A DNA stretch of 40,260 nucleotides, taken from assembly GCA_030694985.1 (NCBI GenBank), contig JAUYTV010000018.1, positions 1 through 40,260 on the forward strand. Direction: 5' to 3'. The position numbers were made by a program, and so were the translations under genes. Positions within the stretch are counted from its first letter, which is position 1; each line of letters starts with the position of its first letter. The notes beneath the pieces are model-generated. The model was not told the DNA's origin, did not search any database, and saw only the letters and a list, made by a program, of their open reading frames with translations. This document shows, piece after piece, positions 25,741 to 40,260 of this stretch. This stretch comes from Methanoregula sp. (lineage in GTDB: Archaea > Halobacteriota > Methanomicrobia > Methanomicrobiales > Methanospirillaceae).

Positions 25741-26295
25741 TCATGACTTTTTGTACCTGCCAAATTCCGCTTCTGCATGTTTACTCACGTCCCCGAAGAT
25801 ATCGGAGCCATGCGAATCGATCCCGACTACAAGGGGGAGCCGGTCGAGTTCGAACACCCAGACCGCTTCTGCCATACCAAGATCCTCGAAGAACACACCC
25901 TTCAGGGTCATGCGATCCGCTGCAAGGGCCGCACACCCACCGGTAAACGCGAGGTAAACGCCCTTGTCCTTTAACTGGCCCAGCACGCGCGTCCCCATGC
26001 CCCCTTTCCCGATGAGCGCCCGCACACCCTTGTCAAATAAGAAACCCGACAACTCGTTCATCCGGGCCGAGGTAGTAGGCCCGGCAGCTACCACCCGCTT
26101 GTCCTGTATCACCGGGCCGCAATGGTAAATCACAGCACCCTTGGGATCGAAGGGTATCCCCTCCTTCTGCATCCGGAGGTGCGCCTCATCCCGGGCCGTA
26201 TAGACAAGCCCCGAGAGTTCGACATGATCCCCCGCATGGAGCGCAAGCACTTCCTCGCCAAGAGGTGTCCGCAGCTGAACGGGTTTTGCCGTCAT
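25741..26295 (-). CDS. Fumarate hydratase (class I), beta subunit
   Basis: 184 residues, equal to the C-terminal domain of single-chain class I Fe-S fumarases. Characteristic blocks are visible: LHAGDHVELSGLVYTARDEAH (about 19-39), YHCGPVI (about 58-64), PTTSARMN (about 74-81), LIGKGGM and FTGGCAALAADRM (about 116-128). With the alpha subunit it interconverts malate and fumarate. Tartrate dehydratase beta subunits look alike, but the adjacent kor-suc genes favour fumarase. Its start overlaps the alpha gene stop by 4 bases. Confidence 0.93.
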   Translation of the reverse strand: MTAKPVQLRTPLGEEVLALHAGDHVELSGLVYTARDEAHLRMQKEGIPFDPKGAVIYHCGPVIQDKRVVAAGPTTSARMNELSGFLFDKGVRALIGKGGMGTRVLGQLKDKGVYLAFTGGCAALAADRMTLKGVFFEDLGMAEAVWVFELDRLPLVVGIDSHGSDIFGDVSKHAEAEFGRYKKS

Positions 26296-27122
26296 CGCTT
26301 CACCTCAACCGTTGCATGCCGGTTCGCCCAGCACTGGATGTTCACCGCAACCGGCAGCGATGCCGTGTGACACCCGGCCGTCTTTACTTTGACTGCGAGC
26401 GCTGTGAAATCGCCACCAAGACCCATCGCACCGATGCCGAGACGGTTCACTGCCGCAAGAATCCCGCGTTCGTAGTCCGTCATCTGGTCGAGCGGCTGGA
26501 GGAGGGCTTCCTTCGCCATCGCAGCTGCCCCGTCAAAGGTTCCCCCGATGCCGACCCCGATTACGATGGGTGGGCAGGGGCGGGAACCCGCGAGGTAGAC
26601 CGTCTCAACTACGAATTTCTCGATCTGGTTCACCTGCGAGGGGAGGAGCATCCCGATGCGGGACATGTTCTCTGCCCCGGCACCCTTGGGGAAGACGGTG
26701 ACCGTGAACTTTTCGCCGGGTTTGACGTGGATGGCCGGCATGCCGTGGCCGGTATTGTCATTGGTATTGTGGCGGGTGATGGGATCCACTACGTTTGGCC
26801 GAAGAGGCACTTCACGGGTCGCTCTCCGGACGCCTTCGGCTACTGCTGCGTAGAGTTCCTTTGTCAGCGGAACATCCGGAGGAATAGTCAGGTAAATCAC
26901 CGGCACACCGGTATCCTGGCACATCGGGACGCCGAGTTTCTCGGCCATGCTGATGTTTTGCAAAATATTGGCAAACTCTCCGCGGGCTACCGGGGATGTC
27001 TCGGCGGCAGCGGCCTGTTCGATCACCCGGAGGACATCCGGGGGGAGGCGGATGACGGCTTCGCGGTACGCCCGGAAGGTGGCGTCGGCGAGGGCTGAAC
27101 AGACGGGGTTTGTGATCTGCAT
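26292..27122 (-). CDS. Fumarate hydratase (class I), alpha subunit
   Basis: 276 residues; the [4Fe-4S]-cluster subunit. Cluster cysteines lie in VPMCQDTGVP (about 60-69), PKGAGAENMSRIGML and IGVGIGGTFDGAAAMAK, matching class I alpha chains. The gene has its own near-leaderless promoter and probably forms a two-gene unit with the beta subunit immediately ahead of kor-suc. It supplies fumarate for the reductive branch; fumarate reductase itself is not in the window. Confidence 0.94.
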   Translation of the reverse strand: MQITNPVCSALADATFRAYREAVIRLPPDVLRVIEQAAAAETSPVARGEFANILQNISMAEKLGVPMCQDTGVPVIYLTIPPDVPLTKELYAAVAEGVRRATREVPLRPNVVDPITRHNTNDNTGHGMPAIHVKPGEKFTVTVFPKGAGAENMSRIGMLLPSQVNQIEKFVVETVYLAGSRPCPPIVIGVGIGGTFDGAAAMAKEALLQPLDQMTDYERGILAAVNRLGIGAMGLGGDFTALAVKVKTAGCHTASLPVAVNIQCWANRHATVEVKR

Positions 27123-27147
27123 TTAATTATACTGGGGAGCGGGGGGT

Positions 27148-27157
27148 AATATATACG
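27148..27157 (-). promoter_or_regulatory. TATA box of the fumarase genes
   Basis: Minus-strand GTATATATTA is centred about 30 bases upstream of the ATG at 27122, predicting a start within a few bases of the codon. It is a strong match to the archaeal TATA consensus. Confidence 0.6.
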
Positions 27158-27205
27158 TGTGCTGTCGGGCGATGACGAGTCAACGAACCGCATCAACTAA
27201 CCAGC

Positions 27206-27328
27206 TTACAGCGTGTCGAACGCGAGCTTTGATTTCCCGGAACCATAGATCCCATTGATTACCAAGAATTTGTCGTAGGAAATCGTGTGGCGGAAATTTT
27301 TGAGCTCATGCGGTCCAGTTGAATGACA
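27206..27328 (-). pseudogene. UvrA N-terminal remnant 1
   Basis: A minus-strand frame ending at TAA (27206-27208) reads PHELKNFRHTIS, then YGSGKSKLAFDTL. This aligns with the start of UvrA (REHNLKNIDVTIP ... GLSGSGKSSLAFDT), including the Walker A lysine and serine. The match starts and stops abruptly after roughly 36 residues, with no start codon or downstream UvrA sequence. It is a decayed fragment. A second fragment covering the same part of UvrA lies near 33.1 kb in the same orientation. The remaining parts of 27158-27450 hold nothing else recognisable. Confidence 0.7.
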
Positions 27329-27450
27329 CTAGCCTTCAAATTAATGTGAGATACAGGTTGATGCCGGTATTTTGATGATGTGAGGATACCGGAATGTGAA
27401 AGGGAATTAAGAAAAATGATGAGATTATCAAGGTCTTTAAATATAATAAA

Positions 27451-28797
27451 TTAAGTAATTTTTTCCTCAACCCTTTCAAAGAAATCTAGCCTCATTTGTT
27501 TGGCTTCTTTCTCGAATCTTTGTGGATCGAATTTTTCGAATGCTGGTTTAAGTTTTTCAGTCAAATCGTATTCTGGATCAATAACATGCCGTGAATTGGC
27601 TGCTACAGCGAGAACATCTTCTAAAAATTTCTGGTTGCCTTTGAATGGAACTAATTGTACCCTACCATCGTAGCGAGCTTCTTTATCTATTAGTCCAATT
27701 ATTTCGAGTGAATTTATTATTTTTTGTGCGGGAGTCACTCCAAATTCTCCAGACAAATCATCTTCGCTAAGACTGGACTCTTTTGTTAATCGATAAAGAA
27801 CCTCATTGGTTTCCGGAACACTTCTCATTAATGTCAAAATTGACTGCGCATTGTCCAATTCTTGATAATTCATGGCTATTAGAGTACCACTAGTAGGTCG
27901 ACTCAGGGCGCTTTCCATTTCAAGGGTATAAGTCCTGTGTGCGATACCCACATTGTCAATAGTTCTTATCATCTGATTTACAATCCTTGGAGGTAAACTT
28001 GTTGCTCGAACAATTTCTGGATGGGAAATAAAACCCCCACTGTCCCCGATAAATTCCATTAATTGTCGAATACCGATTCGCAATTCACTACTTGTATCCA
28101 AGACTGATTCCCAAGTTTCTTTTGATTGGGCTCCGGTAATGAAAGATTTTGAGAAGGTGTATTCACTTCCTTTGATATCCTGAGGACGAACAGCGTCAAT
28201 TTCTTGTAAAGCTACGTAATCCCTAAGAAATTGATACCGCTTTGTCGACGCCGCTTCAAGCTCTGAGGTTAACTGAGGAAAATTGAGAACACCTCTCACA
28301 ATCTCAAATTGATTAATTTGCTGCTCAAAAAGTGGCCCGATTTCGAGGAAATTTTTTTTGACGAATAACTTACTTCCTATCGGATACGGAATTACATTTA
28401 TTACACGAGAACTTGAAGGTTCAAATTCAATGAAACCATCTTTTAATCTTGGGATTACCGATGTTTTTAGATTGTGATTAAAACTTGGTCTCGCGGCAGT
28501 TGTCGGAGTGATTCTCCAAACATCATTTGCAATTTCAATAAGATCTTTCTTATGATGCGCAACATCCAAAAATGCCAATCCTCTTGCTAGAAGAACTGCA
28601 CCACTGAACTGACCTGGGGTAAGTCTTTTTGGTTGGATTTGATCATCTAAATAATATTCCCGTACACTTCGAATTATTTGATCTTCTACTCGAATTACAT
28701 CATTTAATTCTGGAGTGTCTAATACGTCGAGAACACTATCGGGTATGGATTGGACAAAGGGATGATCTAAATATGGCCTGAATTTATCAGAGGCCAA
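27451..28797 (-). CDS. Large winged-helix-type protein of unknown function
   Basis: 448 residues from a TTG at 28797; not recognised. The TTG directly follows the TGA of the upstream gene in the same frame, and GGTGA lies 5 bases before it, so an independent, coupled start is plausible. Helical throughout. Two segments look like winged helix-turn-helix units: about 250-295 (SHPEIVRATSLPPRIVNQMI) and about 328-385 (SLSEDDLSGEFGVTPAQKII). No catalytic motif or membrane segment is visible. The AT-rich composition is unlike the core genes. It could be a regulator or a DNA-binding component of a defence module. Confidence 0.75.
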   Translation of the reverse strand: MASDKFRPYLDHPFVQSIPDSVLDVLDTPELNDVIRVEDQIIRSVREYYLDDQIQPKRLTPGQFSGAVLLARGLAFLDVAHHKKDLIEIANDVWRITPTTAARPSFNHNLKTSVIPRLKDGFIEFEPSSSRVINVIPYPIGSKLFVKKNFLEIGPLFEQQINQFEIVRGVLNFPQLTSELEAASTKRYQFLRDYVALQEIDAVRPQDIKGSEYTFSKSFITGAQSKETWESVLDTSSELRIGIRQLMEFIGDSGGFISHPEIVRATSLPPRIVNQMIRTIDNVGIAHRTYTLEMESALSRPTSGTLIAMNYQELDNAQSILTLMRSVPETNEVLYRLTKESSLSEDDLSGEFGVTPAQKIINSLEIIGLIDKEARYDGRVQLVPFKGNQKFLEDVLAVAANSRHVIDPEYDLTEKLKPAFEKFDPQRFEKEAKQMRLDFFERVEEKIT

Positions 28798-29748
28798 TCA
28801 CTTCACCTTTTTCACCATTGATTTTTTACATTCATCCCCAAAAGCTCGTTTTACCAGAACGTGATCTGTTTTTGAATCAAGAACGATATTTTCAGAATTT
28901 TTTAATGAAATTCTCCAGTTGTGTTGCTTAAAAATTCGGTCCAAATCTATACTATAATCATAATTATTAAGTAAACATTTCATCAATTCATTTTCATCTG
29001 AATTGTTATTCGACAATGCTCTCTCTTTTAGTCCTAAGAACATTGTCACGACTAGATCTAGAAATGGTTTGTATAAATGGGAATTCTCTTCTGAGGTCAT
29101 TCCCATCATTTTGAACCGAGTGGCGGAAGCCAGTCCTCGAATTATTATCAAGGTTTCAACAAGTTCCCGATCGAGTTTTTCAATTTTATACAATGGCTCA
29201 AAAAGACTTACGAAATCGTTTCCTGCTGGATCTCTAATCTTTTTAATCTGGATAATTTTATGAGTATCGCAGATTACAAGAGCACGCCGAATACTATCCA
29301 ATGATGTCGTTGATCCAATTCGTTTATAAATTTCAGTGTCAGTTAATCCCTCTTTGAAATTAACAAGAACTTCCCAGCAACCGTTTTCAAATAAAAGAGA
29401 GAATGGAGAGAAAGGATCGGTAATTAAACGATCATAACTTTCTGCAAGAACAGATGCCCTCATGTGCGATGTATTCGCTTGTTGTAAATCCGATTCGAGT
29501 GTAGGTACTCCACCAACCCATTTTATCGAGGTTTTACCTTTTATTTTATTTTTTATTATCAACCCTTCTTTCTGTAGATTTGAGATTTTTGAAGTAACTG
29601 TACTTTTCTTCAGTCCAAGCTTTTCTATAATCTCGTCATACGTTGCTTGTTTTTGTTCTTGAAGAAATTGCGCAATCTTGACTTCGGTTGCGGTTATCCT
29701 CATTTCTTCAATTTGGGCAGTGGTTGCCAAATTTTTTGAGACGTCCAT
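28798..29748 (-). CDS. MarR-like winged-helix protein
   Basis: 316 residues. GGAGGGA eight bases before the ATG is the best ribosome binding site in the island. Residues about 18-75 form a clear winged helix-turn-helix (TATEVKIAQFLQEQ, YDEIIEKLGLKKSTVTSKI, basic wing KNKIKGKTSIKW). A second HTH-like unit lies at about 125-175 (LTDTEIYKRIGSTTSLDSIR). The C-terminal half is helical with no known motif. The gene ends KKSMVKKVK-TGA and the next gene continues in the same frame, so the two could once have been one 765-residue protein. AT-rich and divergent from the DUF3644 gene. Confidence 0.75.
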   Translation of the reverse strand: MDVSKNLATTAQIEEMRITATEVKIAQFLQEQKQATYDEIIEKLGLKKSTVTSKISNLQKEGLIIKNKIKGKTSIKWVGGVPTLESDLQQANTSHMRASVLAESYDRLITDPFSPFSLLFENGCWEVLVNFKEGLTDTEIYKRIGSTTSLDSIRRALVICDTHKIIQIKKIRDPAGNDFVSLFEPLYKIEKLDRELVETLIIIRGLASATRFKMMGMTSEENSHLYKPFLDLVVTMFLGLKERALSNNNSDENELMKCLLNNYDYSIDLDRIFKQHNWRISLKNSENIVLDSKTDHVLVKRAFGDECKKSMVKKVK

Positions 29749-29973
29749 AATTTCCCTCCTTATTTCTGAAAATGTTCCTCGACTGCTTCTGGATTTGAGA
29801 ATATAATCCTTATATGTAATTATCAGTTTGCTCTTAACAATGATATATCGAAAAGGTATTAGCGGATTGTTTAAGAGAGAGACAGGTTAAGAATCATAAG
29901 ACGAATATTCAATAAACAGAATAACTGAATTGAATGCTTTAACTATTCCCCATCAAGAAAAATTGGAGATTTG
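29749..29973. promoter_or_regulatory. Divergent promoter region of the wHTH pair and DUF3644 gene
   Basis: This 225-base AT-rich region drives both directions. Minus-strand TATA-like sequence lies at about 29802-29818 and gives a leader with GGAGGGA. The plus-strand gene has GGAG (29965-29968) five bases before ATG 29974. The block ATAATCCTTATATGTAATTAT-like (29803-29823) is a rough inverted repeat that overlaps the leftward TATA box and could be an operator for the winged-helix protein. The last point is inference. Confidence 0.4.
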
Positions 29974-31044
29974 ATGAAACGCGAAGTAAAAACATTGTTG
30001 GACAAATCTGTCGCTTCTTTACTACTATCGATTGAGCTCTTTAATCGCCCCCACGATTATGCAAGGACTTGTTCTGTTTTGATTTTGTTAGATCACTCTT
30101 TTGAAATGTTGCTCAAGGCATCAATACTTCAGAAAAAAGGAAGAATTTTTGATAAAATTTCCAATTATACAATCGGCTTTGAAAAATGTTTAAGGATCGC
30201 TGTTGGTGATGGAAATGTCCGGTTTCTTACTAAAGAACAGGTGTTAACCTTACAAACCATAAACAGTATCAGAGACGCCCAACAGCACTACATCATCGAT
30301 GTTTCTGAAAATCAGTTGTACTTGTACGTTCAATCTGGCTTCACCTTGTATCGAGATATTTTGAGAAATGTCTTTGACAAGGATTTGTATGAATTTCTAC
30401 CAACACGAGTATTGCCTATTTCGACAACCCCCCCAATGTCATTAGAAGTTTTATTCGATCAAGAAATTGAAGAAATTAAAAGATTATTAAGCGCGAAGAG
30501 CAGGAAAAAAAGTATAGCAATCTCCAAGCTCAAACCTCTTGAAATATTAGAACGGTCGCTTCAAGGGAACGATCAACCTGTAACCGATCATGATCTAAAA
30601 AAGAAGATTGAGAGAGTGCAACAAGAGAAAGATTGGCGAACAGTTTTTCCAAATGTTGCAGCTATTGAAGTTGTTCCAGATTCATCATCACCATCTATAG
30701 CATTACGTTTCACAAAAAAAGAAGGGATTCCGATTCATGTTGTTCCAGAGGGAACGCCCGGTTCTTTTGTTGTCGCAATAAAGAAAGTCAACGAACTCGG
30801 TTTTTTTAACATGACGTATAGTCAATTGGCTGAAGCAATCCATCAGAACACTGCGAAAACTAATGCATTGATATGGTATCTAAAAATAAAAAATGATGAT
30901 GAATGTTGTAAAGCGATTCAAATGGGCAAGACGACTTTTTACAAATATTCAGTTAAATCGATTTCAAAAATTAAGGATGCATTACAAAAAACAACAATTG
31001 ATGAAATTTGGAAGACCTATAGAGAAAGTGTTTTAAAAAGGTAG
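29974..31044 (+). CDS. DUF3644 family HEPN-like protein
   Basis: 356 residues from ATG 29974, chosen over TTG 29971 because GGAG sits five bases upstream. The N-terminal half matches my memory of DUF3644: LLDKSVASLLLSIELFNRP (8-26) and ILLDHSFEMLLKASIL (37-52), followed by R100-D-A-Q-Q-H105-Y, an R-x4-H motif of the HEPN RNase superfamily. The C-terminal half carries a beta-rich segment, then an HTH-like unit (about 280-340, YSQLAEAIHQNTAKTNALIW and MGKTTFYKYSV). HEPN proteins of this sort often act as RNA-cleaving toxins in antiviral or toxin-antitoxin systems. It is divergent from the winged-helix pair and AT-rich; repeat copy R1 follows. Confidence 0.75.
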   Translation: MKREVKTLLDKSVASLLLSIELFNRPHDYARTCSVLILLDHSFEMLLKASILQKKGRIFDKISNYTIGFEKCLRIAVGDGNVRFLTKEQVLTLQTINSIRDAQQHYIIDVSENQLYLYVQSGFTLYRDILRNVFDKDLYEFLPTRVLPISTTPPMSLEVLFDQEIEEIKRLLSAKSRKKSIAISKLKPLEILERSLQGNDQPVTDHDLKKKIERVQQEKDWRTVFPNVAAIEVVPDSSSPSIALRFTKKEGIPIHVVPEGTPGSFVVAIKKVNELGFFNMTYSQLAEAIHQNTAKTNALIWYLKIKNDDECCKAIQMGKTTFYKYSVKSISKIKDALQKTTIDEIWKTYRESVLKR

Positions 31045-31108
31045 GATCGTTGCCATTAAATTTTGAATAGAAAATTTACAATCAATTGTAAATGTAAGGA
31101 AATATTTT

Positions 31109-31170
31109 TGCCCTCAATTCCGGCAATTGACAACGGTCTCACAACATCCGGTCCCGGGTCCGCCGCATGC
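31109..31170 (+). repeat. Island repeat R1 (short copy)
   Basis: Opens TGCCCTCAATTCCGGCAATT, then GACAACGG, ACAACATCCGG, the core CCGGTCCCGGGTCCG and the tail GCATGC. It starts 65 bases after the DUF3644 stop codon. It is GC-rich inside an AT-rich neighbourhood, as are the other copies. Confidence 0.7.
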
Positions 31171-31241
31171 GTGAAGTCAGTACTTCCGGAAGTAATACTG
31201 TTAACTCAAACTTTATCCCATCCCCAACTAAGTAATGAAAC

Positions 31242-31775
31242 ATGGCGGAGAGAATTAGATTAAAAACCGCTATCGAGTCACAAATTCAGGTCGATAGGTG
31301 TTTTGGAAGCTATGAAACGTACAGAAAATGGGCTAATGAAGAGGGGTATATCTTAATCGAAAATGTAAAAATACCAACGATAAAAGAAAAAGGAATCTGG
31401 TATATCAATCGAGTAGATTTTGATAGAGCGCTCACATTGTATAAAAATAAATATTCATCAGAATTTCAGAAAATGGCCAAATTGATGATGGAAGATTATC
31501 AAAATGGAATTTTCCATTCTGGGAAAATATGGATAACTGACTCAAAATATTATGTGAATAAAGGCGATTTTCGATTGGATGTTGATGCCTATGCTCAGGC
31601 TTGTAAGGCGAGCGATGAGACATGGTTCTGCAATATCTGTAATATACCTGCAAAGACTGAGCACAATAATCCCGAATGTCATAGGTGCAGTGATTGGGAT
31701 GGCTGCGGAACCGACTGTACTTTATCAAAGGTTTATTGCACAAAATGTGGGAAATCTATGCACGTCGGTATATGA
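31242..31775 (+). CDS. Cysteine-rich protein of unknown function
   Basis: 177 residues; not recognised. The N-terminal 125 residues are mixed alpha/beta, rich in Lys, Tyr and Trp, with two similar phrases around an invariant-looking Trp-Tyr (KGIWYINRVDF and KIWITDSKYYVNKGDF), hinting at an internal duplication. The C-terminus packs eight cysteines in about 50 residues (CNIC, ECHRC, CGTDC, CTKC), probably two zinc sites. No ribosome binding site is present, but CTTTATCC about 30 bases upstream could give a leaderless mRNA. AT-rich; repeats R1 and R2 lie on either side. Confidence 0.65.
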   Translation: MAERIRLKTAIESQIQVDRCFGSYETYRKWANEEGYILIENVKIPTIKEKGIWYINRVDFDRALTLYKNKYSSEFQKMAKLMMEDYQNGIFHSGKIWITDSKYYVNKGDFRLDVDAYAQACKASDETWFCNICNIPAKTEHNNPECHRCSDWDGCGTDCTLSKVYCTKCGKSMHVGI

Positions 31776-31838
31776 TAATTTTTCACTGAACCCTCCAAGC
31801 CCAATAACCCTGCTCACACTCACCGATCCATCCGCACC

Positions 31839-31930
31839 GGCGCTCCTCAGTGCCCACATTACTTAGTAATTGACGACGGCCTCACAACATCCGGCCAAGG
31901 GTCCGTCAACCCGAGAGAGGTAGGGTCGAC
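31839..31930 (+). repeat. Island repeat R2
   Basis: Opens GGCGCTCCTCAGTGCCC like R6, then ATTGACGACGGCCT, ACAACATCCGG, a degenerate core CCAAGGGTCCGTCAA, and the tail GAGAGAGGTAGGGTCGAC shared with R3. It starts 64 bases after the preceding stop codon. Confidence 0.7.
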
Positions 31931-32001
31931 CGTGAATTCCATAGAGATTTGTTCAAGAGATTTGATATTATTGTAAATTATAACTCACCGTGTGAAGTCG
32001 A

Positions 32002-32760
32002 ATGTCAGGAAGACTTTTTGATATTATCCCAGATTCAGATGCATTGCTAGCTCTCGAACCGGAAGAGTTAGCAGGTATTGTACTTGAATTTCTAAATTCA
32101 CTCGGTCATGGACAGGCTGACCAATTATTAAATACACATAATTTTAGCCAACCAGACACGGTTGATGGTTATCCTCAAGAAAAGAAAAAGGAAATCCTGA
32201 AAGCACTGATGGAGGCATGGAGTTGGTTAGATAGCGAGGGTTTGATTGCACCTAGACCGGGTTGTATGGATAGTCCTAGTTTTTTCATATCCCGAAGAGG
32301 AAAAAAAGTCTTGAATCAAGAGGAGTTTCGAAAAATTTATCATGGTAATTTACTACCAAAACACTTATTGCATTCAGTTATTGCCCAAAAAGTCAGGTCT
32401 CCTTTTATTCGAGGAGCTTACGATTCTGCTGTTTTTGAAGCCTTCAGAGAACTTGAGATTTTTATTCGAGAAGCTGGTGGATTTTCATCAACAGATTTTG
32501 GTGAAAAATTGATACGAAAGGCATTTGACGAAAATTCGGGGTCGTTAACGGATCTAAATCAACCAAAACCGGAACGTTTAGCACTTCAGAATTTATTTGT
32601 AGCAGCTTATGGATCCTATCGAAATCCACAAAGTCATAGAAATGTATCAATTGATCAGGCTGAAGCAGTAGAAATGATAATGCTTGCGAGTCATTTATAC
32701 AAAATCGTAGAAACCCGACATGGTGCACGAATTGCGAATAATTTAATAAATAACCGTTAA
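32002..32760 (+). CDS. TIGR02391 (Ymh-type) HEPN-like protein
   Basis: 252 residues. The C-terminal domain (about 118-245) matches the TIGR02391/Ymh group: GAYDSAVFEAFRELEIFIRE (138-157), LIRKAF, then Y-R207-N-P-Q-S-H212-R, the R-x4-H motif expected of HEPN RNases, and a helix EMIMLASHLYKIVE. The N-terminal ~115 residues look like a winged-helix-like adaptor. Family members occur in phage-defence and restriction neighbourhoods. A TATA-like AAATTATAA about 26 bases before the ATG suggests a leaderless mRNA. AT-rich; lies between repeats R2 and R3, upstream of the restriction-modification genes. Confidence 0.82.
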   Translation: MSGRLFDIIPDSDALLALEPEELAGIVLEFLNSLGHGQADQLLNTHNFSQPDTVDGYPQEKKKEILKALMEAWSWLDSEGLIAPRPGCMDSPSFFISRRGKKVLNQEEFRKIYHGNLLPKHLLHSVIAQKVRSPFIRGAYDSAVFEAFRELEIFIREAGGFSSTDFGEKLIRKAFDENSGSLTDLNQPKPERLALQNLFVAAYGSYRNPQSHRNVSIDQAEAVEMIMLASHLYKIVETRHGARIANNLINNR

Positions 32761-32883
32761 TCGGGTATTAATACAAAATTTGGACTATAATATCAATAAT
32801 TTATCAATTTTTTTGCAGGAGATAGGGAAATATGGAAGAGAATTTCATTCACTTCAAATGAACATTTCCGTACAATGTTTCTA

Positions 32884-32964
32884 AGTGCTCTCGGTTCCGG
32901 ATTGTGACGACGGCTACCCAACATCCGGTTCCGGGTCCGTCAATCAAAGAGAGGCAGGGTCAAC
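32884..32964 (+). repeat. Island repeat R3, abutting a UvrA remnant
   Basis: Opens AGTGCTCTCGGTTCCGG, then GTGACGACGGCT, CAACATCCGG, the core CCGGTTCCGGGTCCGTCAA and the tail GAGAGGCAGGGTCAAC. It starts 124 bases after the Ymh gene. Its right end lies within three bases of the point where UvrA similarity begins. Confidence 0.75.
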
Positions 32965-32967
32965 ACT

Positions 32968-33180
32968 GACATCCGGCTTATGCATGACGCCAAGGAAATG
33001 GCGGGCATCGGTGGAGAGTCAGGTGTACCGCCGCTGCCCTTTGACGTACAGAGTGACGAACGCGAGCGTCGATTTCCCGGAGCCCGAGACCACGGTGATC
33101 ACCGCGAGCTGGTCATGAGGGATCGTAACGCTGATATTTTTGAGGTTGTGCTGGCGGGCACCTTTGATGGTGTCTTTCAT
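32968..33180 (-). pseudogene. UvrA N-terminal remnant 2
   Basis: On the minus strand from ATG 33180 the frame reads [20 protein letters not shown], then [12 protein letters not shown] and KGQRRY; after one in-frame TGA (33019-33021) it goes on LSTDARHFLGVMHKPDV. This is the first ~75 residues of UvrA with the Walker A motif, then similarity stops at 32968. With an internal stop and no remainder of the gene, it is a remnant. It is longer and better preserved than the 27.2 kb fragment and lies in the same orientation. Confidence 0.8.
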
Positions 33181-33426
33181 TCTGGGGGGATGGGACCAGT
33201 GGAAATTGTTTCGGAGTTTCTGATTTTCCAACATTCGTGGCAAATACCTGTATAACTGTGATATCGAATGATACAACTTGTTTGGAGAAAAACGAAATGC
33301 ATTAATCAAGTTAGAACTGAATCGGTTATACTGAATGACAATTAATCAACAGCCCGATCCATCGTATAAAAAATATCGCTCTGTCGCGCCACGAACGACT
33401 GCGATTAATACCAATGAGGTTCGGTG

Positions 33427-35544
33427 ATGTCGAGACTCACTGACCTTATTCATCAAGCGAAAAGTCTTAACCCTCAGTTGGGTCTGGATCTGGATACAGA
33501 ATTCCGTGCATTGTTAAAACGACGCTCGTTCGGTCTGGTCTTTGAGCGTCACCGTCCGGAGGCGGTAGAACTTCCACAACGCCCCGTGATGAAGGGCGAT
33601 ACGGTCAGGATTCTACCTCCGCGTGGTATTATGGAGAAAGGTGATAAGAGACTCTGGCGGGTGTTAAAGATCGAGCGGAACAACGATTCCAGAATGGCAC
33701 ACCTAATTGAGGTCGGCAAAGATTTACCCGAACGGAGTTCTGTGACTCTGGAAGATGTCGTTGTCGTCGCAGCGTTTCGTGATCCCCTCTACCCCGGTCT
33801 CGTGGAGACTGGACGAATCGAGCGGGGAGGGGTCAAGCCATTTCATACCGTCATCAACGGTGAAAACTACCATGTCTTGGAAATGCTGACATACACACAC
33901 CGGCACAAGGTAGATGCCATCTACATCGACCCTCCCTACAATTCGGGTGCGAAGGACTGGAAATACAATAATGACTATGTCGAGAGTGACGACCTGTACC
34001 GGCACAGCAAATGGCTGGCGATGATGGAACGGCGCCTGACCTTAGCAAAAGAGCTCCTGAATCCCGAGAACAGCGTTCTCATCGTCACGATCGATGAGAA
34101 AGAGTACCTACGTCTGGGGCTGCTCCTAGAGCAGATACTTCCCGAGGCGCGTATCCAGATGATAAGTACAGTCATCAACCCTAAAGGGGTTCCACGAGAC
34201 GGATTTGCGCGTGTGGACGAATACATCTTCTTTGTACAATTTGGATCGTCGGAAATTGTCGGCGATATCAAAGAAGGAAGCGGTGGCACTGAAGTTCGTT
34301 GGCGCAGTTTGACTAGAACAGGCGCGAATGGCACCCGAAGCAAATCTCCAGGGGCGTTCTACCCGATCTATTTCGACAAAGCGGGAAAGATAATCGAAGT
34401 TGGCGATGCACTACCAATTGGAAAAGACGCAAGTTCTCTCGCTCCTCGCAAAGGATTGATTGCTGTATGGCCCACTCCTCGTCCGGATGGCGAAGATGGG
34501 CGGTGGTCAGTCGTTTCCGAACGGCTGAGAGAAATGATCGAAATTGGTGCCGTTAAAGTTGGGCGAGTGAAACTCGATAAAGAACAATTTCCGATCTTCT
34601 ATCTCACATCTGAACAGCTCGCAGCAATCGAATCGGGTGAGTTGGAAGTAAGAGGAAAGACGCCTGAAGGGGTGATGCAGGTTTTCTTCCGTGAAGAGCG
34701 CGGGCGGGTTTCTGCTCCTCGAACGGTATGGGAAAAGGTAAGCCATAGCGCGAGCGAACAAGGCTCTGGCTTGTTGAAAACACTACTGCCAGGGCGTAAA
34801 TTCCCTTATCCGAAGTCGCTTTATGCGGTAGAAGACGTACTTCGACTTACCGTTCGAGGGAAATCCGAGGCTGTTATTCTCGATTTCTTCTCCGGCTCTG
34901 GCACCACCGCCCATGCCGTCATGCGCCTCAACCACGAGGATAGTGGGCGACGGCAGTGCATCTCTGTCACCAACAACGAAGTAGGTGCAGATGAACAGGC
35001 CGAACTGCGCAGGCAGGGCCTACGCCCGGGCGATTCCGACTGGGAGCAGTGGGGCATCTGCGATTACATCACAAAACCCAGAATTCAAGCCGCCATTACA
35101 GGAAAGACACCAGACGGGCAGCCAATCAGCGGCGACTACAGGTTCACGGACGAGTTCCCGGTATCAGATGGGTTCGAAGAGAATGCTGTGTTCTTCACGT
35201 TGACCTATGAGGGGGCGCTCTCCGTCTCCCATCACCGGGCGTTCGAAAGAGTGGCTCCATTGCTTTGGCTCCGGGCAGGCAGCATAGGCCGGATCATCAA
35301 TGCCATTCCGGAACGTGGCTGGGACGTGGCCGAATCGTACGGGGTACTGGTTGCACTGGATGAGACCACTGCATTCGTCAAAGCAATGTCAGGAATAGAA
35401 ACCGTGAAAATTGCCTATATCGTCACGGATGACGACCGGCGCTTCCAGATGATCTGCTCCCATCTGCCGGATCACGTAGCACCCGTGCGTCTTTATGAAT
35501 CATACCTGGCCAATTTTGAGATCAACAGCGGGAGGTGCACCTGA
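33427..35544 (+). CDS. Type III-like N6-adenine DNA methyltransferase (Mod)
   Basis: 705 residues. ATG 33427 is preferred over GTG 33424 because GAGGT lies seven bases upstream. It is a beta-class amino-methyltransferase: motif IV I-D168-P-P-Y171-N-S-G comes before motif I DFFSGSGTTAH (about 486-496), which binds SAM. The target-recognition region lies between them (about 260-450). The long N-terminal region (1-140, with GLVFERHRPE and VRILPPRG) is typical of large Mod-like enzymes paired with a DEAD/DEAH helicase. It should methylate adenine in a specific sequence and protect DNA from the partner nuclease. The stop overlaps the next start by one base. GC-richer than the flanking modules. Confidence 0.9.
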   Translation: MSRLTDLIHQAKSLNPQLGLDLDTEFRALLKRRSFGLVFERHRPEAVELPQRPVMKGDTVRILPPRGIMEKGDKRLWRVLKIERNNDSRMAHLIEVGKDLPERSSVTLEDVVVVAAFRDPLYPGLVETGRIERGGVKPFHTVINGENYHVLEMLTYTHRHKVDAIYIDPPYNSGAKDWKYNNDYVESDDLYRHSKWLAMMERRLTLAKELLNPENSVLIVTIDEKEYLRLGLLLEQILPEARIQMISTVINPKGVPRDGFARVDEYIFFVQFGSSEIVGDIKEGSGGTEVRWRSLTRTGANGTRSKSPGAFYPIYFDKAGKIIEVGDALPIGKDASSLAPRKGLIAVWPTPRPDGEDGRWSVVSERLREMIEIGAVKVGRVKLDKEQFPIFYLTSEQLAAIESGELEVRGKTPEGVMQVFFREERGRVSAPRTVWEKVSHSASEQGSGLLKTLLPGRKFPYPKSLYAVEDVLRLTVRGKSEAVILDFFSGSGTTAHAVMRLNHEDSGRRQCISVTNNEVGADEQAELRRQGLRPGDSDWEQWGICDYITKPRIQAAITGKTPDGQPISGDYRFTDEFPVSDGFEENAVFFTLTYEGALSVSHHRAFERVAPLLWLRAGSIGRIINAIPERGWDVAESYGVLVALDETTAFVKAMSGIETVKIAYIVTDDDRRFQMICSHLPDHVAPVRLYESYLANFEINSGRCT

Positions 35545-38141
35545 TGCGATATACCCTTAAGGATTATCAGACCGATGCTGTCGGCCGTGTGCTAACTAAC
35601 CTGCGCAAGGCGCGCCGGTATTACCATGATGATGGAGACCACTCACAGTTCTCTCTGTCAGCCACGACGGGCGCCGGTAAGACGGTGATGGCTGCTGCTG
35701 TCATAGAAGCCCTCTTTTTCGGGTCCGATGAGTTCGACTTTGAACCAGACACAGGCGCTGTGGTAGTATGGTTTTCCGATGACCCCTCGCTCAATGAACA
35801 ATCGCGGGCACGTCTTCGGGCGGCCTCTGATAAGATTGATCGAATGATTTCGGTAAAGACCACCTTTAACCACCTGAAATTTAATCCACAGACGGTCTAT
35901 TTCCTGAACACGCAGAAATTTTCAAAGCACTCGCTCCTCGTACGTGGAGCCATGACGGAGATAGATAACGATCAGGAGGTGCTGGTCGCGTCGCGTCCCG
36001 ATGAGCAGCAGAACTCAATTTGGGATACAATCACGAACACAATCGAAGACAAATCCTTCACGCTCTACTTTATTCTTGATGAGGCACATCGGGGCATGGT
36101 GACTCGCAATAGCGAACGCCCGACCATCGTGAAAAGACTCATCAACGGTCATGGTGCTGTCCCGCCCCTACCAATCGTGTGGGGTATCAGCGCCACCGTG
36201 GAGCGCTTCGAGAATGCCATGAGTGGCACGGTGGGCCGAACCGCACTCCCATCGGTCGACGTGGACTCGGTCCGGGTTCAAGCCTCCGGGCTCCTCAAGG
36301 ACGATATCATACTTGGATTTCCAAAGGAGTCGGGCCGATTCGATACGGTGCTCCTGAAACGCGCTGTTCGGAAGGTGGTTGAGTCCACCAATGCATGGGC
36401 TGAATATACACGGGATCAGCGGGACACGGAAACCGTGGTGCCGCTTCTTGTGGTCCAGGTTCCAGACAAAGCAAGCGATCAGATGCTCGCCGATGCAGTG
36501 GCAACGATCCAAAACGAATGGCCATCCAATTGTCTCAGTCTTGAGTTTGACGCATTTGCCAATGTATTCGGAGAGCACAAAAACATCGTTGTCGGGCAGA
36601 CATCTATCCCCTATATCGAACCAGAACGAGTACAGGATGCACGTCACATCCGCGTCCTTTTTGCCAAGAACGCGATCTCAACTGGCTGGGATTGTCCCCG
36701 GGCTGAGGTAATGATGTCATTCCGGCCGGCAACGGATACGACCCATATCACTCAGCTCCTAGGCAGGATGGTGCGTACCCCGTTGGCACGTCGTATCCCA
36801 GGCAATGAGATTCTTAATAGTGTATATTGCCTCCTGCCGTTCTTTGACAATGCAACGGCTACTGCCGTTGCGAATAGGCTGATGAAGGGTAGTACGGATC
36901 GCGATGATGAAGAAAACGCGACCGGCACTGGTGGCGGCGAAGGCCGGCGTATCCTTTTCGAACCCATCGAAATGACGCCTAATCCGGCCGTAACAGAATC
37001 CGTATGGGAGCGATATCTCGCATTACCCTCTGAGACAATTCCCAAGAAGAATGCCAAGCCGATTAAACGATTGACCGCTTTGGCACAGGCTCTCTCTACC
37101 GATAACCTGGTGGATCATGCTGGGGATAAAGCTCATAATCATCTTCATAGAGTTCTCGATGGACTGGCCGTTCGATATAGATCCGAGGTTGAGAGCGCCA
37201 TTAAAGACATCCAGACCGTAGAGGGAAAAAATCTGCGAGTCAACATGGTTGATCGCGGCATATCAGATGACGAATTCACCGAGATCGCTGACAACCGGGT
37301 AATAGAAGATGCGTACCGGGCCGCTCGTCGCGCATTCTCCGACGACGTGGCACGCACATATGTCGAATATCTAGCAGGTCCTGGAGGGGAAGATGAGCTA
37401 AGGGAGGCGCACGTGACGGTGGCAGCCTTGGCTCTCATCCCGGAAATCGTAACGGATATCGAAAGCGAAGCCGACAGGTTGGCCACGAAGTGGTTCACTC
37501 AAACACGGGTGGAGCGAACCCGGCTCAGTGACCGCAAGCAGGCGGAATATGATGATATTCAGGCCATGTCATCCAAGCCCCAACGCGTCTCTCTTGGCAG
37601 GCCAAATGTACGCCAGGAGGATACAAGGATAATCGACGATCAGGGTCACGAGATGTCTCTACCGACCCGTACTAAACACCTTCTTGCTGATAGTACCGGA
37701 GCGTTCCCCATTAAGCTGAATGAGTGGGAGACCACTGTCCTCGATACGGAGATGGCCCGACCAGGATTCTGTGCCTGGTACCGCAATCCGAGCCGGGTCT
37801 GTAAGGAATCGCTCGCAGTTTCCTACGAACATGGACCGGATGATTACCGTCCATTTTGCCCGGACTTCATCTTCTTTGTTCAGAAGGACGATGGAAGTGT
37901 TGTGGCCGATATCGTTGACCCGCACGGCTTCTATCTGGCCGATGCGTTACCGAAACTGCGAGGTCTTGCGAGATTTGCGGAGACTTATGGTGCCGATTTC
38001 CGCCGCATCGAAGCGTTCGCCAAAGTAGGAGAAAAACTGAAGGTACTCGATCTAACTAAGCCAACCGTGATCAACGCAGTGAAGGAGTGTACTAATTTGG
38101 AGGATCTCTACGTGAGCGAGCTGTCGCAGGACTATTGCTAA
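35544..38141 (+). CDS. Type III-like restriction helicase-nuclease (Res)
   Basis: 865 residues. It begins at the ATG in TGATG with GGAGGTG (35531-35537) upstream; the open frame starts slightly earlier at a GTG. Superfamily 2 helicase motifs: Walker A T41-T-G-A-G-K-T47, D179-E-A-H182, S216-A-T, and Q404-L-L-G-R-M-V-R411. The C-terminal region has a PD-(D/E)xK-like segment P773-D774-F-I-F-F, then D789-I-V-D-P-H-G where the catalytic Lys position appears as Val. It should translocate or scan DNA and cut unmethylated sites with Mod. If the substitution is real, nuclease chemistry may differ or use another Lys. Confidence 0.88.
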   Translation: MRYTLKDYQTDAVGRVLTNLRKARRYYHDDGDHSQFSLSATTGAGKTVMAAAVIEALFFGSDEFDFEPDTGAVVVWFSDDPSLNEQSRARLRAASDKIDRMISVKTTFNHLKFNPQTVYFLNTQKFSKHSLLVRGAMTEIDNDQEVLVASRPDEQQNSIWDTITNTIEDKSFTLYFILDEAHRGMVTRNSERPTIVKRLINGHGAVPPLPIVWGISATVERFENAMSGTVGRTALPSVDVDSVRVQASGLLKDDIILGFPKESGRFDTVLLKRAVRKVVESTNAWAEYTRDQRDTETVVPLLVVQVPDKASDQMLADAVATIQNEWPSNCLSLEFDAFANVFGEHKNIVVGQTSIPYIEPERVQDARHIRVLFAKNAISTGWDCPRAEVMMSFRPATDTTHITQLLGRMVRTPLARRIPGNEILNSVYCLLPFFDNATATAVANRLMKGSTDRDDEENATGTGGGEGRRILFEPIEMTPNPAVTESVWERYLALPSETIPKKNAKPIKRLTALAQALSTDNLVDHAGDKAHNHLHRVLDGLAVRYRSEVESAIKDIQTVEGKNLRVNMVDRGISDDEFTEIADNRVIEDAYRAARRAFSDDVARTYVEYLAGPGGEDELREAHVTVAALALIPEIVTDIESEADRLATKWFTQTRVERTRLSDRKQAEYDDIQAMSSKPQRVSLGRPNVRQEDTRIIDDQGHEMSLPTRTKHLLADSTGAFPIKLNEWETTVLDTEMARPGFCAWYRNPSRVCKESLAVSYEHGPDDYRPFCPDFIFFVQKDDGSVVADIVDPHGFYLADALPKLRGLARFAETYGADFRRIEAFAKVGEKLKVLDLTKPTVINAVKECTNLEDLYVSELSQDYC

Positions 38142-38376
38142 TGATATAGGTGGGTGCTCAGTCTGGATCGGGTTTAGGGCCTGTCTGGTATAGAACTGAC
38201 GGAGGTTTACGCCCATCCAACCGTGACTTATCATCAACAGGCAGCGCGATTGTTCGACTGTGATTTTATCAGAACCCCTTTTTACCCTGCATATCTTCCC
38301 CTCAAGCTTTCGTAAAATCTTGGTCGCTTTCGTTTATAAGCACGCTATCTGGTTCGTGACCTATATGCGTCTCTCA

Positions 38377-38474
38377 TTGCCCTCAGTACCGGAGAAGCAC
38401 GACGGCGTTCGGTACCGATCGGGTTCCGGGTCCGTTCAATCACGGAGAGGACGGCGCCCCGCCCCACCGCATGC
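38377..38474 (+). repeat. Island repeat R4
   Basis: Opens TTGCCCTCAGTACCGG, then GCACGACGGCG, the core GGGTTCCGGGTCCGTTCAA, the tail GGAGAGGACGGCG and CCCCACCGCATGC. It lies 235 bases after the Res stop. The gap 38142-38376 before it and 38475-38627 after it contain no gene I can support. Confidence 0.75.
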
Positions 38475-38627
38475 AGGATCAAACACAAATATTCCGTTGA
38501 GGGGCACTATCGATCGTATCCATTCGTTGAATGGTATCAAGATCCAGAGAAATAATGTAATCCAGACTAACCAGCCTATAATTCGTAAGTTCAACAATCA
38601 CCAGTCCAACGATATAATATTAAAAAT

Positions 38628-39248
38628 CTAAATCAATTTTGAGAAGAGGTATACTAAAAGTCCTGCTATTAATGTTGTTACAAATGTTATGATTGCTAGA
38701 TCCCCATTTTTTTCCCAATAACTTAAGTCATTTCTCGATTTTTTTAGGTAAACAATTGAGTGTTTATTCATAGAAGTGTAAAACATGTAGAACCAAAATG
38801 CACAAAACATTACTCCAAAAATTATTGAAATCGAAAGATCGTATTTACTTAGTTGTCCTAAAAAAAAACCAACAACAATCATTATTGCGGCATTTCTAAT
38901 AGATAGCTCAAAAAACGATAATATGCTTTTTTTCTTTTTAAAAATTTCTTCAATTCTACCTTTCATCCCTTGTTGGATTATATCCTGAGTGTCAGAAAGA
39001 TACAACCTTGTTTTAAATTTTATTGATTCAAGCGTGATATATGGATCGTGGCCTTTCAGATGATATTCCGAAGTCTCCTTGAGATCTATTTTTTCGATAT
39101 CATCGACAGAATCTAATTCGTACTCACCAACAGTAATTTCAACTCGTTTGCAATTTGTTTTAAAAATTTCTATAAGTTCGATAAAATCTTCTTTGACGAA
39201 TCTAGAAATTGGACAGTAAAAAGATTCGTTCTTGGCCCGTTTTTTCAT
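38628..39248 (-). CDS. Small AT-rich membrane protein of unknown function
   Basis: 206 residues from ATG 39248 (MKKRAKNESF). A TTG three codons earlier is possible, but the TATA-like GTTTTATTATTA at about 39274-39284 fits near-leaderless start at 39248. A cytoplasmic N-terminal domain of about 110 residues, rich in Lys/Glu/Ile, precedes two closely spaced membrane segments (about 120-160: AAIMIVVGFFLGQL, IIFGVMFCAFWFYMFY) and a third at the C-terminus (about 185-204: IITFVTTLIAGLLVYLF). No family is recognised. Its position in a defence-like island suggests a membrane effector, but that is only inference. It is the most AT-rich gene here. Confidence 0.65.
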   Translation of the reverse strand: MKKRAKNESFYCPISRFVKEDFIELIEIFKTNCKRVEITVGEYELDSVDDIEKIDLKETSEYHLKGHDPYITLESIKFKTRLYLSDTQDIIQQGMKGRIEEIFKKKKSILSFFELSIRNAAIMIVVGFFLGQLSKYDLSISIIFGVMFCAFWFYMFYTSMNKHSIVYLKKSRNDLSYWEKNGDLAIITFVTTLIAGLLVYLFSKLI

Positions 39249-39347
39249 TCTAATCAATGACTAGTTGATCTCTAATAATAAAACGAATGTGGTTTAAAAA
39301 TTTCAGTATTTTATATCTACATCGAATTGATTTGTAACGGCACTTAT

Positions 39348-39532
39348 CAGTGCCCTCAGTACCAGCCCTTGACGACGGCCCCCCGCTCCGGTCCCGGGTC
39401 CGCTCATTCAGTACCAGCCCGGCCCCGCCCCACCGCACGCGGCCGATACGAGAGCGGGTGAGCCAGTCCCAACAAAACCCGGCCGGACCGGTCCGGCGCA
39501 TTCATTCCTGTGATCAGAAAATTTCCCGGGCC
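39348..39532 (+). repeat. Island repeat R5 (long copy)
   Basis: 185 bases. It opens CAGTGCCCTCAGTACC, then TTGACGACGGCC, the core CCGGTCCCGGGTCCGCTCA, a CCCCACCGCACGCGG tail, and a long right arm containing GGCCGGACCGGTCCGG and CAGAAAATTTCCCGGGCC. From CCCCACC to the end it is about 93% identical to R6 (seven differences in about 104 bases by eye). Confidence 0.85.
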
Positions 39533-40060
39533 CCAAACGAGAATCGCACCGGAATTTTCCCGGTAGAAGCGGACGAGCAGTACAATTTTGTCCGCTCCAA
39601 AAGGCACCGGCAAAAAATATCCCGGGCCGCTTTTACTCCGGTCGTGCCGGATTTTTTTTACCGGATCGTGTGCGGGCAAAAAAATATTTTCCGGATTAAT
39701 CCGGCCCGGGTGCAAAACTGCCCACCCCCCCTGCCCGGGATCTCAGGAATGCCACCGTCGGAGACCTCCCTCCTGGGAGACCTGGAGGCCCCCGAGAGAA
39801 TTCTGGTACAACAGAGCCCGTAACGGTGCCGGTTGTACCTCTTTTCCCAAACACGCCAAAATCAGAGGTCATAATTCGCAAAAACACAGGAACAGGACCC
39901 GGAACCGGCAGAGGTTTATCGACGGGAATGGATGAGGTCATATTTAGCCGCATTTGGATGGCAAAAGTCAGGGCAGGATGATGTTTATGAGGTTGGGGGT
40001 CCTGGCTGGGGGCCGGATTTTAAGTTTTTGGCACACCCTTCTGTTATGGCATCTTTACAG
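39533..40060. other. GC-rich non-coding spacer between long repeats
   Basis: About 530 bases with open frames on both strands (for example 39588-39935 plus, 39696-39953 minus), but none has protein-like composition or a recognised motif. It is full of CCGG and CCCGGG words. Noted: a perfect 14-base palindrome CCGGATTAATCCGG at 39691-39704, and several A-runs followed by CCCGGGCC that resemble the right end of the long repeats. It may be a decayed cassette or further repeat sequence. Confidence 0.4.
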
Positions 40061-40251
40061 GGCGCTGCTCAGTGCCTTCGGTTCCGGCAATTGACGACGG
40101 GTCCGGTACCGATCCGGTCCCGGGTCCGCTCATCCAGAGAGGACGGCCCCACAGCACGCGGCCGATACAAGAGCGGGCGAGCCAGCCCCAACAAAACCCG
40201 GCCGGACCGGTCCGGCGCATTCATACCTGCGATCAGAAAATTCCCCGGGCC
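40061..40251 (+). repeat. Island repeat R6 (long copy)
   Basis: Opens GGCGCTGCTCAGTGCC, CTTCGGTTCCGGCAATTG, ACGACGGGTCC, the core CCGGTCCCGGGTCCGCTCA, then GAGAGGACGG, CCCCACAGCACGCGG and the same long right arm as R5 ending CCCCGGGCC. It combines the left arm seen in R2 with the right arm of R5, so it is the most complete copy. The window ends nine bases later. Confidence 0.85.
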
Positions 40252-40260
40252 GCTGAACTC

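Follow-up and report, generated by a model that had tools for sequence, protein, structure and literature searches.

What are the two nearly identical, apparently non-coding stretches at the end of this Methanoregula contig, and what keeps them alike? The window that we analysed is a complete contig of 40,260 bases (C56) from a 2.49-Mb genome (G000), and the second stretch lies close to the contig end at 40260. A preliminary description had taken the pair (R5 and R6) for recent duplicates or for copies kept alike by recombination, and had proposed either a small non-autonomous mobile element or the edge of an expanding array. Our analysis favours, with a probability of about 0.8, an array that is shuffled at its repeats by a site-specific or a homologous route, in which R5 and R6 would be two sites of a chromosomal gene-cassette array.

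R5 and R6 precede the same type of cassette

The pair, described beforehand as about 93% identical and some 715 bases apart, was recovered as a 106-nt direct repeat (39427-39532 and 40146-40251) with 93% identity and a spacing of 719. A profile search for the repeat core detected six + strand sites in the window: R1, weak and partial (31108-31168, 38.4 bits), R2 (31846-31928, 30.1 bits), R3 (32882-32966, 60 bits), R4 (38374-38460, 58.3 bits), R5 (39346-39433, 51 bits) and R6 (40069-40156, 77.5 bits). Chance was ruled out for R5 and R6, as the first 27 loci contain 115 same-strand core sites of their family. Within the repeat proper (columns 30-150), the two share 69% identity compared to 50-67% for the other 14 pairs of the window, and their near-identity sets in within the repeat and extends rightward into the head of the next cassette. 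The "right arm" of R5 (39427-39532, + strand) consists of the end of the repeat plus the head of a non-coding cassette, and its 93% identity to 40146-40251 is explained by R5 and R6 both preceding the same cassette type. Recent duplication of the repeat itself was rejected given its identity of 69% and the little homogenisation seen within genomes.

More copies of the repeat are found on contig C58 of the same genome, the start of which overlaps the window end by 13 bases. R6 and the end of C58 differ on their left sides and then share 141 identical bases (40120-40260, + strand), from CCGGGTCCG in the conserved box onward. For the cassette head, recent duplication or upkeep by recombination therefore remains a sound description, whereas for the repeats as a whole it fails, since their identity is 0.718 within genomes (388 pairs) and 0.699 between genomes (5904 pairs). 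The "expanding array edge" comes close, the structure being an array and the apparent edge the end of the contig. C58 itself (L017, 1-3738) is a 3.7-kb contig whose end overlaps its own start by 13 bases; it may be a tandem copy, or else a three-cassette circle.

The repeats form a same-strand family in Methanoregula

The repeat measures approximately 120 bp, its conservation running past the core model on both sides. Double copies occur, with starts 93-130 bases apart, and seven core-to-core gaps are only 28-37 bases long. A genus-wide search with a model built from 48 repeat copies returned matches (E up to 0.001) in at least 33 of the 39 Methanoregula genomes and three or more in at least 20 of 39, with E-values that are rough for this profile (model R1), which was built using copies from several of the searched genomes. 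Among the matches listed, the longer assemblies G017, G035, G042, G043, G048, G049 and G050 contain one cluster each and G006 contains two, with two matches in G011 and one in G031. Outside the genus, a survey of the order under stricter filters gave matches in 3 of 58 genomes: G057 and G090, with a single weak match apiece, and, with two moderate ones (on C14 and C117), G093, a 62%-complete genome from another family of the order, where they reflect either transfer or contamination. Of the 29 stretches that a pattern scan of named genomes returned, 18 belong to Methanoregula or uncultured Methanomicrobiales. The remaining 11, from bacteria (10) and a haloarchaeon (1), have a single match apiece and were interpreted as chance occurrences in GC-rich DNA. 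Repeat matches were absent from the viral contigs (one pattern), phages and plasmids that were searched.

The cores are nearly uniform in direction across 35 contigs or stretches from 23 genome labels, 155 of 158 lying on the majority strand of their own contig. In the counts of strand, homology ends, linkage, families and identity, no contig was entered twice as judged by names and sizes, labels AM5, UBA276 and GL3 lying outside that check; some loci are one contig with two names (e.g. L053 = G043:C2 and L067 = G038:C39). Unlinked repeats are approximately 70% identical and share a conserved box of about 17 bp. Only 3 of 500 label shuffles match the gap between within- and between-genome identity. 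Repeats from the same genome are only slightly more alike, which argues against strong gene conversion, with the exceptions of G001 (0.80 within versus 0.74 between) and G049 (0.77 versus 0.71), in which within-genome identity is clearly higher.

Units of DNA between repeats are probably lost, gained and reordered

Most core-to-core intervals (74 of 87) span 0.3-3 kb. We found 193 interspecies matches in the arrays (≥250 bp, ≥80% identity), and 60.3% of their 345 ends fall within 50 bp of a core compared to 15.8% of random positions, a comparison in which the control spreads ends uniformly and HSPs and pairs are non-independent. Exactly one core-to-core interval is spanned by 38 of the 193 matches. 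When interspecies homology reaches a core, it stops in 220 cases and crosses in 4, one of the crossings being a 2.1-kb match between G048 and G001 that covers parts of two adjacent cassettes. Nearly half of the intervals (48 of 103) belong to one of 13 multi-member families, and of the 19 neighbour pairs of cassette families that were seen, none recurs in a second genome (0/19).

In three species pairs, the best cassette is more similar than uvrA, with identities of 89.4 versus 79.1% (G001-G048), 89.3 versus 80.6% (G000-G043) and 95.2 versus 87.3% (G012-G035); others lie below uvrA (84.7-85.4 versus 87.8% for G006-G035). In the window, the 5.1 kb of the type III restriction-modification cassette (33244-38392) match an array contig from another species (L022) at 96.4% identity, compared to 92.1% for uvrA. 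That the best cassettes are more alike than uvrA points to exchange between species for some of them.

Same-strand arrays, interspecies homology that ends at the repeats, scrambled order and the higher identity of some cassettes than of uvrA are the observations on which we consider a shuffled array very likely. The direct repeat of about 120 bp would separate cassettes, mostly 0.35-2.9 kb in size, the majority of which have one or more ORFs and some of which are non-coding, and recombination between repeats would cause cassettes to be lost, gained and reordered, so that the platform would work like an integron.

Cassettes carry accessory and defence genes in both orientations

The cassettes of the window include a gene on the + strand for a 177-aa protein with a possible zinc-binding domain (31242-31775; PF17977, E = 0.0088, below its cut-off), a gene coding for a 252-aa Hypoth_Ymh protein (32002-32760, + strand; PF09509, E = 1.6e-22), a type III restriction-modification cassette (33424-38141, + strand) composed of mod (33424-35544, PF01555) and res (35535-38141, PF04851), and an ORF of 209 aa devoid of Pfam match on the − strand, opposite to the repeats (38628-39257). 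A DUF3644 gene adjoins the array. Across the genus, we analysed 81 proteins hand-picked, one or a few per cluster, from 198 ORFs of at least 100 aa located within the arrays or up to 1.6 kb from them. Among the 25 most-matched of the 106 Pfam families found, methyltransferases and GNAT acetyltransferases have four members each, and AbiEii, FMN reductase, RibD-C, hydrolases, TetR and DNA methylases two members each. Defence models matched in these proteins include AbiE and type II methyltransferases. Mechanically called ORFs of at least 90 aa, obtained without gene calling, lie on the repeat strand in 43 cases and on the opposite strand in 55, and 10 of 74 intervals contain no such ORF.

Fumarase and 2-oxoacid oxidoreductase genes are located near the arrays of G000, G005, G006 and G035, and uvrA-uvrC near those of G048, G049, G017, G043, G034 and G031 and near the second cluster of G006, the families of the flanking genes being named via proteins of G048 and G006. 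This second cluster (G006:C24:148939-149733) has two copies and lies downstream of uvrA-uvrC rather than upstream of uvrA. The stretch between array and uvrA contains SIR2-like, ApeA, YhcG/DUF1016 and AAA_15 with DUF4435 genes (L092:1164-2507, L089:348-3654, L036:13336-15614), which are known or probable defence genes.

A truncated 5′ fragment of uvrA (32962-33187, − strand) abuts R3 in the window and ends after the ..KPDV codons. By eye, the core abuts this same codon at four places: in the window, in L022 and twice in L019. Truncated uvrA 5′ ends occur at arrays or next to them in several genomes, G001, G012, G017, G048 and G043 hold similar fragments, and the intact uvrA of the window's genome is on contig C7. 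Two origins are conceivable: dispersal, as a cassette, of one ancestral junction, or a uvrA 5′ end that serves as a target for insertions. The window also holds a second truncated uvrA 5′ end (27161-27404).

The cassette between R5 and R6 is non-coding

The cassette that follows R5 (39436-40067, + strand) has relatives over its full length in L022 and L027; elsewhere, the relatives are partial. Its description as a non-coding spacer was borne out: the ORF at 39588-39932, the one tested, has no Pfam match, and the conserved part of the spacer displays little three-base periodicity (mean conservation by phase of 0.719, 0.695 and 0.685). Within it lies a second conserved and dispersed non-coding element (39745-40015, strand unassigned), present in 22 of the 39 genomes of the genus with up to 16 matches per genome, outside arrays too, and containing a nearly invariant GGTACAAC...GTTGTACC. 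Convincing covariation was not found in 46 rows of this element. A fold seen in 20 copies was discarded, as it nearly vanished (−0.8 kcal/mol) in a more diverse, gappy alignment of 46 rows. Rfam searches gave nothing convincing in 26000-40260 at gathering thresholds or in 39250-40260 at E up to 5, and a tRNA scan of the window returned none.

Most of the repeat is linked to the left-hand cassette

Copies below 30 bits were excluded from the average-curve, conservation and linkage analyses and from one of the breakpoint analyses. For the left cassette (15 families), most bins to about column 120 of the extended repeat show positive linkage, the 80-90 bin including zero. For the right cassette (17 families), none of the seven bins that precede column 90 has a confidence interval excluding zero. 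This asymmetry indicates that most of the repeat goes with the left-hand cassette; its left 90 or so columns would travel with that cassette as attC does with its gene. The best inverted repeat, GGTCCGGTACC-AATCC-GGTTCCGGGTC, gave the top score of 182 columns and has its centre near column 94, at the onset of right linkage. It has 11-bp arms, 8 of 11 positions being paired in the consensus, and a spacer of 5-9 bp; of 114 copies, 69 are consensus-like in the left arm and 101 in the right. Columns 90-110 hold 23% of the breakpoint posterior of 18 recent pairs, compared to 12% or 17.5% for a uniform distribution over the whole alignment or over the repeat, respectively. A fixed crossover point, which the average curves had hinted at, found no support in the linkage and breakpoint analyses, given the spread that these show.

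Among the recombinase matches found, none is located within an array or next to one, the nearest being a Xer-type gene 12 kb away in G006. An enzyme of this type, 305-307 aa in length, is the sole tyrosine-recombinase match (PF00589) in G035, G042 and G049; from its size and universal presence, we infer that it is XerA. The gene also occurs in G009, G044, G045 and G046, which have no repeat match among the matches listed. Five of 12 genomes, G035 and G042 not among them, gave serine-recombinase matches, all of them away from arrays.

A site-specific or a homologous route

Because breakpoints are spread across the repeat, homologous recombination rivals site-specific recombination, and we regard the choice between a site-specific route, with XerA as its best candidate, and a homologous one as nearly even. 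The homologous alternative, which we take seriously at somewhat under even odds, is that no dedicated system exists and that the arrays result from ordinary recombination, homologous or driven by microhomology, between the direct repeats of a hot spot in a defence island, which would shuffle whatever DNA they enclose. Besides the spread of breakpoints, it accommodates the lack of an array-borne recombinase among the matches found, the occurrence of genes in both directions (43 same, 55 opposite), some homogenisation in G001 and G049, and the accumulation of truncated uvrA 5′ ends at one locus, as a general insertion hot spot predicts. However, repeats that are about 70% identical and share a conserved box of about 17 bp would make a poor substrate for homologous recombination, there is little homogenisation in most genomes, and linkage is asymmetric within the repeat. 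We lean toward a site-specific recombinase acting in trans: site-specific recombination at the repeat is close to an even bet, and XerA is a candidate only, with rather low odds of being the enzyme.

Other readings fare far worse. It is improbable that the repeat is retained between genes as a structural RNA or regulatory element and that the mosaicism is incidental. The repeat does possess a weak central hairpin of 8 pairs, and although the consensus folds weakly (−5.5 kcal/mol for the top strand, −2.7 for the bottom), both strands fold more stably than 100 column shuffles (z = −7.3 and −3.7, respectively). Against this reading, only 1 of the 8 pairs displays two-sided change, the Rfam searches gave no convincing family for the repeat, and interspecies homology stops at the repeats.

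Slightly less probable still is a true integron cassette array without detected integrase (CALIN) that has unusual attC sites, a reading that would account for the same-strand sites, the cassette sizes, the scrambled order and the GNAT, methyltransferase and toxin-antitoxin-like genes among the cassettes. The paired boxes of attC sites are RYYYAAC/GTTRRRY; paired R″/R′ boxes of this kind were found in none of the 48 repeats of alignment A4. The consensus fold of 8 pairs is weak, if more stable than column shuffles, and the genes have mixed orientation. The integron integrase model TIGR02249 scored above its cut-off in none of the 39 genomes of the genus; sub-cut-off matches occur in 32 of 39, many of them involving a Xer-type enzyme. 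G037 carries an integron-integrase-like fragment (L068, G037:C120; E = 2.9e-50, 146-aa frame), possibly a bacterial contamination, the listed repeat matches of this genome being on C16.

Finally, the small non-autonomous mobile element of the preliminary description, i.e. a MITE-like element inserted many times, would explain the many copies of a short non-coding repeat, but we rejected it as very improbable given the single orientation and clustering of the copies, the interspecies exchange of the DNA between them, and the lack of a target-site duplication at the one unit examined, that of R5, the two ends of which have no 6-mer in common.

Comparison with known systems

Integrons have been reported in Archaea from a screen of 6718 genomes, first for attC and then with IntegronFinder (PMC9668308), and Methanoregula is not named in the main text of that paper. 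Archaeal Xer/dif is treated in PMC2958812, and the main text of a review of archaeal tyrosine recombinases (PMC8371274) contains neither "cassette" nor "Methanoregula". Our literature search, the scope of which excluded bioRxiv preprints and most subscription papers, returned no description of these arrays.

Like integrons and CALINs, the Methanoregula arrays consist of tandem small cassettes with one class of site in one orientation, have a scrambled order and a pool common to several species, and the site is associated mainly with one of the two cassettes beside it. Unlike integrons, they have no integrase above cut-off and no paired attC boxes, their genes lie in both orientations and their breakpoints are not at one base. 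By the tests made, the array is therefore integron-like, yet not an integron. Gene-cassette platforms have so far been equated with IntI and attC, and a cassette array with another site in methanogens would represent a second way to stockpile and reorder accessory and defence genes. The arrays also offer a defined place in which to seek new archaeal defence genes. Such arrays would escape attC-based surveys, which are not built for them. More tentatively, and at odds of perhaps one in three, they could constitute an IntI-independent gene-capture platform, in which cassettes would circulate between species and enter the array site-specifically via XerA or an unrecognised enzyme acting in trans, an independent archaeal counterpart of the integron.

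In the geometry of its best inverted repeat (11-bp arms and a short spacer), the site may also resemble Xer-dif and plasmid pdif modules, such as those of Acinetobacter and the archaeal dif (PMC8371274), and a Xer-type enzyme is present in the array genomes where this could be assessed. It differs in being GC-rich, about 120 bp long and arranged as direct repeats in arrays. Minimal mobile elements and defence islands are shuffled by homologous recombination. With them, the arrays have in common the exchange of accessory and defence genes at a fixed chromosomal place; here, in contrast, the boundary of what is exchanged is a recurrent repeat within an array rather than conserved flanking genes.
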